A stretch of DNA of 34,441 nt from an uncultured Pelagibacteraceae bacterium (GTDB taxonomy: Bacteria > Pseudomonadota > Alphaproteobacteria > Pelagibacterales > Pelagibacteraceae). Position 1 is the stretch's first letter. Each line of letters opens with the position of its first letter. Below are positions 27,353 to 32,368 of this stretch, piece after piece. The DNA is taken from assembly GCA_902522955.1 (NCBI GenBank), contig CABYXR010000009.1:1-34441 (forward strand). The letters are read 5' to 3'. The notes beneath the pieces were generated by a model. The model searched no databases, was not told the origin of the DNA, and worked only from the letters and a program-made list of their open reading frames with translations. The translations under genes and the position numbers were made by a program.

Positions 27353-27862
27353 TTATTTTTTATCTTCAGCTTTTAATTTAGTTTTTTCTTTAACAACATC
27401 AGCCTCTTTTTTTTTATCTTCAGTTTGTATTTGCTCATTAGAGGCAGTAGCTTTTTTTGTTTCAGGTATATCCGGCTGAGTAGAAACATCTATTCCAATT
27501 TTCTTTTTTATTTTCTCAGCAATTCTAGCTGACTTACCTTTCCTACTTCTCAGATAGTATAATTTTGCTCTTCTAACTTTTCCTGTTCTTATAACTTTTA
27601 TAGAATCTACATTTGGACTATAAAGAGCAAAAGTTCTCTCTACTCCCTCTCCAAATGAGATCTTTCTAACTGTAAATGATGAATTTAAATCTCTGTTTTT
27701 TTTCGCAATACAAACCCCTTCAAAGTACTGAATTCTCTCTCTTTTGCCCTCAATTATTTTTACACCCACTTTTATGGTGTCGCCTGGCGAAAATTCAGTG
27801 ATTTTCTTATTGGCAACAATCTTTTTAATTGCCTCTTTATTTATGTCTTCAATGTTTTTCAT
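27353..27862 (-). CDS. rplS: Ribosomal protein L19 with charged C-terminal extension
   Basis: 50S protein at the 30S-50S interface. Residues 1-119 match L19 ([70 protein letters not shown]). About 50 extra residues follow, rich in K, E, T and D without a repeat period, making 169 against the usual 115-125. Alphaproteobacterial L19 often has a tail, so this is a moderate extension. The start overlaps the trmD end by 14 bp, suggesting coupled translation. Confidence 0.96.
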
Positions 27863-28550
27863 TTTTTTTGTTTAAATATTTTTTCCAAAGATCAGGTCTC
27901 TGGCGACGTGTTATAGCCTCTGATTGTGACAAACGCCAGCTTTTAATTTTGGCATGATCGCCTGATAATAGTACATCAGGAGTGTCTTTTCCTTCCCAAT
28001 TCTGAGGTTTCGTATACTGTGGATATTCCAAAAGGTCATCTTTGAAACTTTCCTCTTTTAAAGAATTTTCATTTCCTAGAACTCCTGGCAATAAACGAAT
28101 AATTGAGTCAATAAAAACATATGAAGCTGTTTCACCACCAGATAAAATAAAATCACCAATACTATATTCTTGAATATTTCTTGTTTCCAAAAGTCTTTGA
28201 TCTATTCCTTCAAAATGACCACATAAAATATTTAATTTTTTTTTCTTACTAAATTCTTGTACAGTCGTCTGGTCTAATTTTTTCCCTTTTGGGGATAAAT
28301 AAATAATTTGATCTTTCTTATTTAAATTTTGGTCAAGTGCTGAAGCTACAACATCTGGCCTTAGCAACATTCCACTCCCACCGCCAAAAGGAGTATCATC
28401 TACTGTTCGATGTTTATCAGTTGCATAATCTCTAATATCAATTACTTTTAAATTCCAAAGTTTTTTTTCCCGAGCCTTTTTGTAAATTCTAGTATTTAAA
28501 GGTCCAGGATACAAATCTGGATATAGAGTAAAGATTTTTACCTCAAACAT
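27849..28550 (-). CDS. trmD: tRNA (guanine-N1-)-methyltransferase
   Basis: Methylates G37 of tRNAs with S-adenosylmethionine, preventing +1 frameshifting. The SPOUT-fold motifs are present: [15 protein letters not shown] (47-61), [10 protein letters not shown] (83-92), CGHFEGID (110-117), [12 protein letters not shown] (129-140) and [15 protein letters not shown] (168-182, with the catalytic aspartate D171). Length 233 is typical. It follows rpsP by 11 nt; rimM, usually between them, is absent here. Confidence 0.96.
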
Positions 28551-28561
28551 AAATATTTTCC

Positions 28562-29086
28562 TTACTTAGTTTTAGGTTGTTCCTTCTTCGCTTCTGCTTT
28601 AGGTTGTTCCTTCTTCGCTTCTGCTTTAGGTTGTTCCTTCTTCGCTTCTGCTTTAGGTTCTTCCTTCTTCGCTTCTGCTTTAGGTTGTTCCTTCTTCGCT
28701 TCTGCTTTAGGTTGTTCCTTCTTCGCTTCTGCTTTAGGTTCTTCCTTCTTCGCTTCTGCTTTAGGTTGTTCCTTACTTTCCTTTTTTCTATCTTTTTTAG
28801 GAATAGCTTTTAAAGGATTATTGCCAGGTTTAGGCATCGGCATTAATTGCATTTCTCCTAATATTCTTGAAACTCTTAAAGTCGGTTGTGCACCTCGGCT
28901 GATCCAGTATTTAACTCTTTCAAATTCAACTTTAATTCTTTCTTTCTTATCTTTCGGTAATAGTGGATTATAAGATCCAAGTTTCTCAATAAATTTTCCA
29001 TCTCTTGGATATCTTCCGTCAGCTACTACTATTTTGTAAATAGGTCTTTTTCTTACTCCCCCCATTGATAATCTTATCCTTAACAT
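28562..29086 (-). CDS. rpsP: Ribosomal protein S16 with a repeat-encoded C-terminal tail
   Basis: 30S assembly protein. Residues 1-82 are the S16 core (MLRIRLSMGGVRKRPIYKIV, RDGKFIEKLGSYNPLLP, RVKYWISRGAQPTLRVSRIL). A proline/lysine hinge follows, then about 70 residues built from the nine-residue unit EQPKAEAKK (or EEPKAEAKK), seven full copies and a partial one, ending PKTK. The protein is therefore 174 residues against about 80-90 for the plain family. The tail is low complexity, alternating K and E/A, and likely unstructured or a helix of charged repeats. Some other alphaproteobacteria have Ala/Lys/Glu-rich S16 tails, so a tail is not unique, but the near-perfect repeat is striking. Confidence 0.95.
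   Translation of the reverse strand: MLRIRLSMGGVRKRPIYKIVVADGRYPRDGKFIEKLGSYNPLLPKDKKERIKVEFERVKYWISRGAQPTLRVSRILGEMQLMPMPKPGNNPLKAIPKKDRKKESKEQPKAEAKKEEPKAEAKKEQPKAEAKKEQPKAEAKKEEPKAEAKKEQPKAEAKKEQPKAEAKKEQPKTK
28572..28760. repeat. rpsP: 27-bp tandem repeat, seven copies, inside rpsP
   Basis: Seven consecutive 27-bp units (plus-strand unit starting TTAGGTTGTTCC and ending GCTTCTGCT) that differ at one base only, G or C at unit position 8, which switches Gln to Glu. In plus-strand order the units read Q, Q, Q, E, Q, Q, E and a partial eighth Q unit begins at 28761. The Q-Q-E pattern repeats with an 81-bp period, suggesting duplication of a three-unit block. The copies are in frame, so gain or loss of units keeps rpsP open. 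Confidence 0.97.
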
Positions 29087-29096
29087 ATTATACCTT

Positions 29097-30449
29097 TCAT
29101 TTTAGTTGATTGAGCATTTCATCTGGTATCATTCCAGATGGAATTTTTTTTCCTTGAGACATTTTTTTCATCATGTCTGACATCATTTTAAATTGTTTTA
29201 GTAGTTTATTTATCTTTGAGACATCTACTCCTGCACCTTTAGAAATTCTTTTACGTCTAGATCCGCTAATAATTTTTGGATTTTCTCTTTCATTTTTTGT
29301 CATTGATAAAATAATTGCCTCGTTTTCTACTAGCATTTTTTCATCTATATTTGCTTGATCCATCTTTGCTTTCATTTTGTTTACTCCTGGTAACATAGAC
29401 ATTACTCCTTCCATGCCTCCCATCTTTTTCATTTGTCTTAACTGAGCAAGATATGAGTCCATAGTGAATATCCCTTTTTTTAATTCATCTTCTGTTTCTT
29501 TAATTTTTTCTTCACTTAAATCTTGTTGTGCTTTCTCTACTAAAGTAACTACATCGCCCATTCCTAAAATTCTATTAGCTAGTCTGTCAGGATGGAAAAG
29601 CTCAAGATCAGTAATTTTTTCTCCTACACCGATATATTTAATTGGTTTTCCAGTGACATGTTTCATGCTTAGTGCTGCACCACCTCGCGCATCACCATCA
29701 ATCCTTGTAAGAATTATTCCAGAAAGATTAACTGCAGTATCAAACTCTTTTGCAACATTAACAGCTATTTGTCCTGTCAATGAGTCAGCTACTAAAATTG
29801 TTTCTGCTGGTTTTGTAATGTCTTTAATTTGCTTAATCTCAGACATCATAGGTAAATCTATCTGAGTTCTTCCTGCAGTATCGAAAATTATTAAGTCTGA
29901 ACCATTAAGATTAGCAGCATTTAATGCTCTTTTAGTAATGTCAATTGGTTGTTGCTTTTCAACTATCGGCAAACATTGAATCCCATTTGCTTCGGCAAGT
30001 AGTTTTAGTTGTTCTTGGGCAGCAGGCCTATAAACGTCTAAACTAACCACCATTACTTTTTTTTTGTAATTTGTCTCAATATTTTTAGCTAGCTTAGCTG
30101 CAGATGTAGTTTTTCCTGAACCTTGTAATCCAACTAATAAAATTGAGACTGGAGGTACAGCTTTAAAGTTTAACTCCTCATTTTTGGAACCTAAAATATT
30201 AACTAGTTCATCATAAACAATTTTTACTATCATCTGGCCAGCAGATGTTGATTTAATAATTTCTTGACCAATAGCTTTTGGTTTTACATTCGCGATGAAT
30301 TCTTTTGTGACTGGTAAAGCTACATCAGCCTCTAATAAAGCTAATCGTATCTCTTTTAAGCCAGAGTCAACTTGTTCCTCGGTTAATGAGGGAGCACTTT
30401 TTAACTTAGAAAAAATACTTTCTAATTTATTTGTTAAATTTTCAAACAT
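29097..30449 (-). CDS. ffh: Signal recognition particle protein (SRP54 GTPase)
   Basis: SRP GTPase that binds signal sequences of nascent membrane proteins and docks with FtsY. From the chosen ATG (30449) the protein is 450 residues: N domain 1-90 (MFENLTNKLESIFSKLKS is the usual N terminus), G domain with P-loop GLQGSGKT (107-114), DVYRPAAQEQL, DTAGRTQIDLPMM and TRIDGDARGGAALS, then a methionine-rich M domain (about 295-450, for example MKKMGGMEGVMSMLPGVNKMK). A GTG six codons upstream is in frame but would run into the structured leader and add nonstandard residues, so I reject it. No clear Shine-Dalgarno precedes the ATG. Confidence 0.96.
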   Translation of the reverse strand: MFENLTNKLESIFSKLKSAPSLTEEQVDSGLKEIRLALLEADVALPVTKEFIANVKPKAIGQEIIKSTSAGQMIVKIVYDELVNILGSKNEELNFKAVPPVSILLVGLQGSGKTTSAAKLAKNIETNYKKKVMVVSLDVYRPAAQEQLKLLAEANGIQCLPIVEKQQPIDITKRALNAANLNGSDLIIFDTAGRTQIDLPMMSEIKQIKDITKPAETILVADSLTGQIAVNVAKEFDTAVNLSGIILTRIDGDARGGAALSMKHVTGKPIKYIGVGEKITDLELFHPDRLANRILGMGDVVTLVEKAQQDLSEEKIKETEDELKKGIFTMDSYLAQLRQMKKMGGMEGVMSMLPGVNKMKAKMDQANIDEKMLVENEAIILSMTKNERENPKIISGSRRKRISKGAGVDVSKINKLLKQFKMMSDMMKKMSQGKKIPSGMIPDEMLNQLK

Positions 30450-30556
30450 TTTTATTACACCCAACACCTATCGCACTAGTGGGCGAACCCTCGCTGACTA
30501 GTGTCGACACCCTTGTTTTCAAGAGCACCGCAAAAACATGTGTATTTGCGGAAAGT
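30450..30556 (-). ncRNA. Structured 5' leader of ffh, likely cis-regulatory RNA
   Basis: The region before ffh is more GC-rich than its surroundings and folds well. On the transcript, the first hairpin (30551-30528) has CCGCAAA pairing with TTTGCGG around a 10-nt loop. The second (30507-30471) has TCG-A-CACTAGT pairing with ACTAGTGCGA: ten base pairs with one bulged A, capped by a small GGG-TTCG-CCC hairpin (30490-30481). It ends 21 nt before the ATG. A candidate cis-regulatory RNA upstream of ffh was reported in Ca. Pelagibacter ubique by Meyer and colleagues (2009, from memory); position and host type agree. Ligand or mechanism is unknown. Exact ends are inferred from the candidate promoter. 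Confidence 0.7.
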
Positions 30557-30562
30557 TTGTGA

Positions 30563-30591
30563 AAACTACAATTTGGGGTTTTAAAAGTCAA
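30563..30591 (-). promoter_or_regulatory. Candidate sigma-70 promoter for ffh and the minus-strand run
   Basis: TTGACT at 30591-30586 matches five of six bases of the -35 consensus and is followed after 17 nt by TAGTTT at 30568-30563, a weak -10. Transcription would start near 30556, just before the first leader hairpin. The good -35 and correct spacing support it; the -10 is poor. Confidence 0.45.
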
Positions 30592-30599
30592 TGAATAAT

Positions 30600-30605
30600 T
30601 ATACT
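30600..30605 (+). promoter_or_regulatory. Candidate -10 box for dapF-ftsY
   Basis: TATACT matches five of six bases of the -10 consensus and lies 11 nt before the dapF ATG, so transcription would begin within a few bases of the start codon. A matching -35 is not clear; TTGGGG at 30573-30578 is 21 nt away. AT-rich background makes this tentative. Confidence 0.35.
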
Positions 30606-30616
30606 AATCTACTATT

Positions 30617-31447
30617 ATGCCTTTGATTAATGCTTTTAGAATGCACGGTTTAGGTAATAGGTTTATTATTGTGGATAGAAGAAAAAACTCTATAGACATA
30701 CCTAGAGAAAAAATAATTCATTTAGGAAATCTAAAGTCTTTTCACCGAAATATTGAATTTGACCAAATAATATTTGTTGAAAAAGAAATTAATAACACAT
30801 TTCCAATAACCATTTTTAATTCAGATGGAGGTGAAGTAAGTGCGTGTGGAAATGGAAGTAGGTGCGTAGCTTACTTATTAAGTAAAGATTTAAATAATAA
30901 AGAAATTAAATTAAAAACAAATAATAGATTGCTTAATGCGAAAATTGTTGGAGATTCTGATGTTCAGCTAGAAATGGGAAAACCTATATTTGAATGGAAA
31001 AAGATTCCATTAAAAGAAAAATTAGATCATAAAAATATAACTTTAAATATTGATGATAGAGAATTTGCTAATGGATTTTGCCTTAATGTAGGAAATCCAC
31101 ATATAGTTTTTTTTGTTAAAGATTGTTTTGAATATGATCTTAAAATATTAGGACCTAAAATAGAGAATCATGAATTATTTCCTGAAAGAATAAATATTAC
31201 ATTTGCTCAAATAGATAATAAAAACAATATTACAGTAAATGTTTGGGAGCGTGGTGCTGGATTAACAAAAGCATGCGGAACAGCTGCTTGTGCTACTGCT
31301 GTGGCGGCATTTATAAAAAAATTAGCTAAAAATGATATCAATATTAAATTTGCAGAAGGAAGTTTAAATATTAAAATAGATGAAAGTCTTAATATATTTA
31401 TGAGAGGTCCAGTTTCAGAAATAAAACATACTAAACTAGAAATCTGA
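30617..31447 (+). CDS. dapF: Diaminopimelate epimerase
   Basis: Interconverts LL- and meso-diaminopimelate for lysine and peptidoglycan synthesis. The 276-residue protein is a cofactor-free two-cysteine racemase: C77 in SACGNGSRC and C220 in KACGTAACATA. N-terminal MHGLGNRFIIVD replaces the common GNDF by GNRF; variation here (for example GNEI) occurs in other alphaproteobacteria. NVGNPHIVFFV and ERGAGLTKACG are also typical. The start is the first ATG of the transcript region and gives the normal N-terminal strand. The stop TGA abuts the ftsY ATG. Confidence 0.95.
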   Translation: MPLINAFRMHGLGNRFIIVDRRKNSIDIPREKIIHLGNLKSFHRNIEFDQIIFVEKEINNTFPITIFNSDGGEVSACGNGSRCVAYLLSKDLNNKEIKLKTNNRLLNAKIVGDSDVQLEMGKPIFEWKKIPLKEKLDHKNITLNIDDREFANGFCLNVGNPHIVFFVKDCFEYDLKILGPKIENHELFPERINITFAQIDNKNNITVNVWERGAGLTKACGTAACATAVAAFIKKLAKNDINIKFAEGSLNIKIDESLNIFMRGPVSEIKHTKLEI

Positions 31448-32368
31448 ATGGGTTTATTTGATAAATTTAAAATAGGGCTAGGTAAAAGTTCAGATGGACT
31501 ATCTGCAGGATTTGAAAATATATTTTCTAAAAAAAAAATTGATAAAAACGTTCTCACAGAATTCGAAGAATTAATTATTTCGTCTGATGCTGGTGTTGAT
31601 GTTGCAAAAGAACTTAGAAAAGACTTTGAAAACTTTAAAGTTGATAAAAAATTAGATGACCACAAAGAAATTCTAAAACTTTTAGCGGATAAATTAGCAA
31701 TAAATCTTCAAAAATACGAAAAAGATTTAAGTCTTATGGGGAATGCAAAATCTGCTGTAATTGTTGTATCAGGCGTAAACGGAGTAGGAAAAACAACTAG
31801 TATCGGGAAACTTGGAAAGTATTTTAAAGACAATAATAGATCAGTTGTCTTTGGAGCTGCAGACACTTTTAGAGCAGCAGCAATAGATCAACTACAAGTT
31901 TGGGCGGCAAAGGTAAAAGTAGATATAATTAAGTCAGAAATTAACAGTGATCCAGCCTCAGTCGCTTATAAAACTGCAGAATTTGCAAAAAAAAATCAGA
32001 TTGATGTTGCTTTGATAGATACAGCAGGAAGGTTGCAAAATAAAAAAAATTTAATGGAAGAATATAAAAAAATTATTAATGTTCTTAAAAAAATTGATGA
32101 GAATTTTCCTAATGAAGTAATTTTAGTTTTAGATGCAACTACTGGACAGAATGCTTTAAATCAAGTTGAAGAATTTAGTAAAATTCATAACATTACAGGC
32201 TTGATAGTGACGAAACTCGATAGCACTGCCAAAGGAGGTATAATCTTAGCAATTTGTAAAAAATATAATTTACCTATCGTAGCTGTTGGAATGGGTGAGA
32301 AAGATACCGACTTACACCCATTTAAGGCAGAATATTTTGCTAAGGCTTTGCTAGGGTTAAATTCTTAA
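31448..32368 (+). CDS. ftsY: Signal recognition particle receptor FtsY
   Basis: Membrane-associated GTPase that receives the Ffh-ribosome complex at the translocon. The 306-residue protein is an NG domain only: N-terminal helices 1-90, P-loop GVNGVGKT (109-116), DTFRAAA (139-145), DTAGR (191-195), TKLD (255-258) and GMGEKDTDLHPF near the end. The long acidic A domain of E. coli FtsY (497 residues) is absent; a short FDKFKIGLGKSS segment may form the lipid-binding helix. It starts on the base after the dapF stop and its end overlaps the opposing hydrolase gene by 4 bp. Confidence 0.96.
   Translation: MGLFDKFKIGLGKSSDGLSAGFENIFSKKKIDKNVLTEFEELIISSDAGVDVAKELRKDFENFKVDKKLDDHKEILKLLADKLAINLQKYEKDLSLMGNAKSAVIVVSGVNGVGKTTSIGKLGKYFKDNNRSVVFGAADTFRAAAIDQLQVWAAKVKVDIIKSEINSDPASVAYKTAEFAKKNQIDVALIDTAGRLQNKKNLMEEYKKIINVLKKIDENFPNEVILVLDATTGQNALNQVEEFSKIHNITGLIVTKLDSTAKGGIILAICKKYNLPIVAVGMGEKDTDLHPFKAEYFAKALLGLNS

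Follow-up and report, generated by a model that had tools for sequence, protein, structure and literature searches.

What does the structured RNA in front of ffh in SAR11 bacteria respond to, and which gene of its operon does it serve? The question arises from a stretch of 34,441 nucleotides from an uncultured Pelagibacteraceae bacterium (contig CABYXR010000009.1 of assembly GCA_902522955.1, hereafter the window), in which ffh, encoding the protein of the signal recognition particle (SRP), follows a structured leader. An earlier reading of the window (the original prediction) had suggested feedback by the SRP protein or 4.5S RNA, or start-site control, and had noted agreement with the ffh leader of Ca. 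P. ubique. Meyer et al. described the latter in 2009 as a motif between ffh and dapF, a single bulged hairpin with covariation, which the passages on it call widespread in Alphaproteobacteria and possibly a regulator of ffh (PMC2704228). The agreement is borne out: the Rfam family of this motif, RF01793, matches the window at 30518-30466 on the minus strand with 47.9 bits against a gathering score of 35, the bulged hairpin with its two conserved internal-loop C residues is present, and the ffh ATG at 30449 lies directly downstream of the leader. The element is catalogued already and is not new as such; it seems to have been named after the wrong gene. From a comparison of genomes, we judge it moderately probable that the element is the 5′ leader of an ffh-rpsP-(rimM)-trmD-rplS operon and acts as an autogenous leader for bS16, the product of rpsP, whose binding to it we predict.

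The conserved core of the element is a pair of neighboring hairpins, P2 and P3, together with a C·C mismatch within P3 and a UU(U)G tail at a fixed distance behind it. RF01793 matches were present in 141 of 200 relatives and in 112 of 387 genomes of the class (the two sets overlap), with one match in each matching genome. A portion of these matches, 140 loci including the window (59 from two surveys plus 80 fetched separately), was examined, and the addition of 13 loci of the PS1 clade, found with a DNA pattern described below, gave 153 sequences, or 102 after filtering at 88% identity. The first alignment was made from 39 of the 102, leaving out those in which the P2 region differed by eye, a choice that favors P2; on these 39 sequences, RNAalifold returned two hairpins without being given a structure, namely, P3 and, just upstream, P2. 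We then aligned 100 sequences, the left-out ones included, to a model from the 39, which gave 99 distinct rows. Across P2 and P3, 96.7% of the cells pair and 15 of the 17 pairs change on both sides (shuffles, mean 12.1). The covariation that the original prediction had proposed to look for is strong, with a score of 0.514 compared with 0.182 for shuffles and at most 0.073 when the partners are slid, in an alignment that was fitted to the structure and hence leans towards it.

P3, the published ffh motif, occupies 30474-30503 on the minus strand of the window, where a 7-bp outer and a 4-bp inner helix are separated by a 2 × 2 internal loop containing the C·C mismatch and are closed by a GGGU loop; the inner TTCG-capped hairpin of the original prediction is not what we find here. 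A stem had also been placed at 30471-30507, which is P3 with a wider span that is explained by extra pairing at its base. All cells of the P3 pairs are paired over the 99 distinct rows, 9 of 11 pairs change on both sides, and the C·C mismatch is found in 98 rows. The position beside the mismatch is A·C in 59 rows, C-G in 17, A·A in 10, G·U in 5, U-A in 4, and something else in 4. P2 (GGUGCUCUUG-AAAA-CAAGGGUGUC, 30506-30529, minus strand) adjoins P3 upstream. Just its 3′ half is included in the Rfam model, as unpaired sequence, and the 5′ arm lies outside the model. All six tested P2 pairs change on both sides, and 90.1% of their cells are paired. The 11 pairs of P3 hold 32 G·U and 0 A·C cells, which fixes the RNA strand as that of ffh and led us to reject an RNA on the opposite strand serving dapF. 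Two observations run counter to this strand call: the A·C found beside the mismatch in 59 of 99 rows would be G·U on the other strand, and P2 contains 103 G·U and 19 A·C cells.

If the RNA belongs to this strand, which of the genes behind it does it accompany? The motif is followed by ffh in 134 of the 140 loci. One of the other six ends 92 nt after the motif, and the remaining five make up a single family (f46), identified as the PS1/OCS116 clade, in which the motif stands directly before rpsP in 5/5 cases; the f46 locus with 3 kb of downstream sequence has the order rpsP-rimM-trmD-rplS. A DNA pattern for the PS1 form of the motif retrieved 14 named records. Thirteen of these have the motif and then rpsP (five are the same f46 genomes) and are labeled PS1 clade, OCS116 cluster, Rhodobiaceae, Hyphomicrobiales, MED-G09, or Alphaproteobacteria. 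The fourteenth (L160), from a metagenome-assembled genome labeled Gammaproteobacteria, has no rpsP behind the match and looks like a chance match. Among 11 distinct rows from the PS1 loci, 121/121 cells of P3 form standard pairs, and two of these pairs vary on both sides, which indicates that the motif is still under selection there; the tail is also kept, as a GUUGG or GCUGA type.

The same clade appears to lack the whole SRP system. In the five PS1 genomes, which are 93-97% complete, no match was found to Ffh (TIGR00959), to any SRP54-type GTPase (PF00448, which includes FtsY; a SAR11 control gave four matches), or, up to an E value of 10, to 4.5S RNA (RF00169; control positive). The PF00448 search was extended to 11 of the 13 named records and found nothing in 10 of them. 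The match in the eleventh was rejected, as it scores 20.5 bits against a cutoff of 22.7 and covers 41 residues inside an APS kinase. The 11 overlap with f46 in three genomes, so that PF00448 covers 13 distinct genomes, with completeness known for five. The apparently SRP-less set comprises genomes G405, G535, G473, G324, and G218 and loci L100, L155-L159, and L161-L168. A literature search on the PS1 clade and the signal recognition particle found nothing.

A leader that answers to SRP would be expected just where SRP is present, and the PS1 loci depart from this. The idea of repression of ffh by its own product, which would attach to the leader alone or together with 4.5S RNA, draws on the presence of the motif before ffh in nearly all loci, with ffh as the first gene there, but genomes without detectable Ffh, FtsY, or 4.5S RNA retain the motif before rpsP. 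We regard SRP feedback as very improbable and, as a general mechanism, close to refuted, and this part of the original prediction is not upheld. Nor is the element itself the 4.5S RNA: RF01793 is the sole Rfam match in the window at the gathering score, RF00169 giving none, and the 4.5S RNA of the same genome lies elsewhere (G000:C1:134865-134959). Start-site control through masking by the hairpin fares no better as a general mechanism. The gap between P3 and the ffh start is 24 nt in the window (in SAR11 22-42 nt, median 24, n = 55) and reaches 292 nt in the other loci (17-292 nt, median 51, n = 79), so that P3 does not overlap the start region.

The gene that stays with the motif is rpsP. 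Of the 66 loci that extend 2.5 kb or more downstream, 65 have it behind the motif on the same strand. In a set made up of the window and 40 loci spanning 3.8-14 kb, it is likewise present in all but one. The exception in both counts is a contig of G372 (L086, L208), where ffh breaks into a stretch with RecF-like and dnaN sequence and rpsP was not found; we take this contig to be chimeric. Three departures from the usual gene order narrow the choice further. PS1 has no ffh. The operon has no rimM in the window (28550-28562), in G262, or in G557, all Pelagibacteraceae. In G417, opposite-strand bestrophin-like and methyltransferase genes part rimM from trmD, and rplS is 2.0 Mb away. The intersection is rpsP, which is always kept, as a ribosomal-protein leader would stay with the gene of its ligand upon rearrangement; this set logic presumes one ligand in all lineages and a gene layout that mirrors the transcripts. 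Taken together with a structured, covarying RNA in the 5′ leader of a ribosomal-protein operon, it suggests that the motif belongs to rpsP rather than to its namesake ffh, in keeping with the original prediction that genes downstream of ffh might be affected. Two side observations concern the same gene order: rimM is present in G121, from another family of the same order, and on a plasmid of Sphingomonas parapaucimobilis (L243), an opposite-strand oxidoreductase gene and an AbrB-type/VapC pair lie between rimM and rplS, a natural split of the operon.

The sequence behind P3 gives an indication of how the leader may act. Taking the end of P3 as reference, we lined up 76 representatives left after filtering at 75% identity and counted the bases that follow: C at +1 in 61, U at +4 in 65, U at +10 in 65, U at +11 in 70, G or U at +12 in 75, and G at +13 in 53, with an information content of no more than about 0.2 bits from +15 onward. 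Precisely at +10, 63/76 representatives have an element of the UUG, UUUG, or CUG type, compared with 1 to 30 at 23 other offsets, the higher shifted counts (30 at -6 and 25 at +1) arising at least in part from U-rich spacers and overlap with the same element. The tail of the window is UUGG (30461-30464, minus strand, +10 to +13). The fixed offset of the tail, set against a variable distance from P3 to ffh, links it to the hairpin rather than to the gene. A search by eye for base pairing of the tail with upstream sequence saw no consistent partner.

At the his pause of RNA polymerase, a hairpin is followed, 11-12 nt further on, by a pyrimidine and G. The tail looks as though it were placed in the same way and is a candidate site for a hairpin-stabilized pause. 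The likeness to the class I pauses, as the passages on that class present them (PMC11087558, PMC6336406), extends to the hairpin, the spacing, and the pyrimidine-G; the difference is that a strict G at the upstream end of the hybrid is lacking here (G in 32/76 at +2). An intrinsic terminator, with a U run immediately behind the hairpin, was rejected for the window and SAR11, where TTTT within 10 nt after P3 is found in 0/55 loci. Outside SAR11, it is found in 32/85 loci, compared with 14/85 in the next 10 nt and 1-8/85 in eight further windows, an excess that makes weak termination possible there.

We can thus picture the bS16 leader as follows. Free bS16, when in excess over 16S rRNA, would bind P2-P3 while the leader is being transcribed. 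Through P3 and the UU(U)G tail, RNA polymerase would halt 11-12 nt beyond the hairpin; with bS16 on the leader, this pause would last longer or release at that point would be favored. Where U-rich sequence follows P3, the transcript could end. The short SAR11 gap of about 24 nt between P3 and the ffh start could also let the complex impede the loading of ribosomes; through coupling, expression of rpsP, whose start lies 10 nt behind the end of ffh in the window, would then fall. This specific version, in which a hairpin-stabilized pause at P3 and UU(U)G is turned into repression by bS16 on the nascent P2-P3, is possible but less likely than not.

The tail would also suit an element that needs no ligand, with P2-P3 and the tail setting polymerase pausing, transcript stability, or processing and no protein being sensed. 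The fixed distance of UU(U)G fits this, as does the TTTT excess behind P3 outside SAR11 over all nine control windows (1 to 14/85), and the small RNAs reported as expressed in Bartonella bacilliformis include an "ffH leader RNA" (PMC7717549). The nearly invariant C·C mismatch and the conserved base of P2, however, look to us like a recognition site, which a plain pause hairpin would not need, and we consider a ligand-free element rather unlikely. A different ligand, such as bL19, TrmD, RimM, or a ribosomal protein encoded elsewhere, seems less probable still. Of the products of the operon, bL19 and TrmD would come from other transcripts in G417, and RimM is not in the operon of the three Pelagibacteraceae looked at; a protein encoded outside the operon may yet be the ligand. 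Least credible of all is a role confined to DNA, with the inverted repeats serving as operators between divergent dapF and ffh. The arms are palindromic and dapF is divergent in the window, PS1, Rhizobium, and Sinorhizobium, but the G·U cells of P3 fix an RNA strand, Paracoccus and Sphingomonas have a different gene beyond the repeats, and the SAR11 promoter lies upstream of the repeats.

Several points weigh against a bS16 leader. The predicted binding of bS16 and its effect on expression come from a comparison of genomes, and the candidate pause from spacing and from features of the his pause. The third lineage of the set logic is a single genome (G417), the logic presumes one ligand throughout, and PS1 is one clade, in which the loss of ffh may be a single event. 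Four genomes of family f24, which we take to be Rhodobacterales, have 3.3-5.1 kb, all on one strand, between the motif and the start of rpsP, far for a leader; in an annotated Paracoccus, genes for an N-acetyltransferase and a chorismate mutase lie between ffh and rpsP. An extended model that includes P2 (R1) matches 108 of the 387 sampled Alphaproteobacteria compared with 112 for the Rfam model, gaining some genomes and losing others, so that P2 brings no wider range. When R1 was run unfiltered on a SAR11 16S rRNA locus (L214) in search of mimicry, nothing convincing was found among 7 matches up to an E value of 10 (best 8.4 bits, E 0.2); the comparison covers this one locus, as the 16S search matched in 1 of 4 genomes, and the lack of 16S-like sequence does not exclude tertiary mimicry.

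In a sample of the phylum, R1 matched 97 of 397 genomes, of which 96 are within Alphaproteobacteria, and the one match outside (G875) is antisense inside a cytidylyltransferase gene and was taken as chance. An RF01793 entry on plasmid pMHb of Mesorhizobium huakuii, listed in the relevant part of PMC5596092, was not reproduced: CP006583 26000-30500 (L239) has neither an RF01793 match at the gathering score nor an R1 match, and the coordinates may differ between record versions.

Within the window, the leader, ffh-rpsP-trmD-rplS, and further genes are on the minus strand, and dapF and ftsY are on the plus strand, divergent from them. The two SRP GTPase genes thereby flank the leader (30449-32368), ffh on one side and dapF followed by the SRP54-GTPase gene (ftsY) on the other. 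The promoter (30563-30591, minus strand) consists of a -35 box TTGACT (30591-30586), a 17-bp spacer, and a -10 box TAGTTT (30568-30563), from which the layout suggests a candidate transcription start near 30556. Among 47 distinct upstream stretches from SAR11, 37 show a TTGAC box and a TA...T box with a spacer between them of 17 bp (35 stretches) or 16 bp (2 stretches). The leader, from about 30556 to 30450, has a G+C content of 46.7% (P2-P3, 55.4%) compared with 31.6% for the window, and its fold of -37.5 kcal/mol (z -3.67) was equaled in stability by none of 200 shuffles. A structured leader behind a promoter, richer in GC than its surroundings, had been predicted, and these data agree with it.

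The prediction had counted two hairpins; comparison supports three in SAR11. One of them, P1 (CCGCAAA...UUUGCGG, 30528-30551, minus strand), has modest support from a comparison that covers SAR11, with 94.4% of cells paired compared with 92.2% for shuffles and 3 of 7 pairs changed on both sides (4 cells in 28 distinct rows). Its 3′ GG (30528-30529) overlaps the 5′ end of P2, and the two hairpins therefore compete, which might make a possible switch in SAR11.

Behind the leader, ffh (29097-30449, minus strand; TIGR00959, 565.5 bits, in line with its earlier identification) is the first gene of the operon. It is followed on the same strand by rpsP (28562-29086; TIGR00002, 93.2 bits), the proposed source of the ligand; trmD (27849-28550; NF000648), with no RimM match between it and rpsP; and rplS, encoding bL19 (27353-27862; TIGR01024). 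The predicted 25-gene run led by ffh is also seen, as 25 consecutive minus-strand open reading frames from 30449 down to 2852 (at least 90 amino acids, nested plus-strand frames left out). The C-terminal part of rpsP (28577-28813) is a long Lys/Glu/Ala/Pro repeat. Some SAR11 contigs end about 1.65-1.75 kb from the motif, about at this repeat, and assembly appears to break there.

Relative to known systems, the element is the same as RF01793, with P3 upstream of ffh in SAR11 and other Alphaproteobacteria. It differs in that the published description, in the passages on the motif, has a single bulged hairpin, to which our core adds P2 and the UU(U)G tail, as well as P1 in SAR11, and in its association with rpsP. 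Eckert and Weinberg (2020, PMC7247131) proposed an S16 leader in Flavobacteria, assuming that the genes under control encode the ligand themselves; the text of that paper has 0 occurrences of ffh. In the sections that treat it, that leader is likewise one of an operon with rpsP and bS16 as the proposed ligand, but it belongs to another lineage, and we liken the two by description, not by sequence or structure. It accounts for all S16 leader proposals in the literature we found, and no paper linking the ffh motif to bS16 was found among the passages of open-license papers that the searches covered. The E. coli trmD operon (rpsP-rimM-trmD-rplS) has the same gene set as that downstream of the motif, except that ffh is not named as a member. 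A 2024 review (PMC10931766) states that information on how this rpsP/trmD operon is regulated is lacking.

The apparent absence of the whole SRP in a marine clade would be notable in its own right. If the element is a bS16 leader, an orphan motif of 2009 would gain a testable ligand, and the extended model, with P2 and the tail, shows the RNA that a binding assay would need. The rpsP/trmD operon would gain a candidate mechanism of control across a large part of Alphaproteobacteria. In most lineages, production of the SRP protein would then be carried along under this control, and the apparently SRP-less PS1 clade would have lost it; in SAR11 and other Alphaproteobacteria, its supply would be tied to ribosome assembly.
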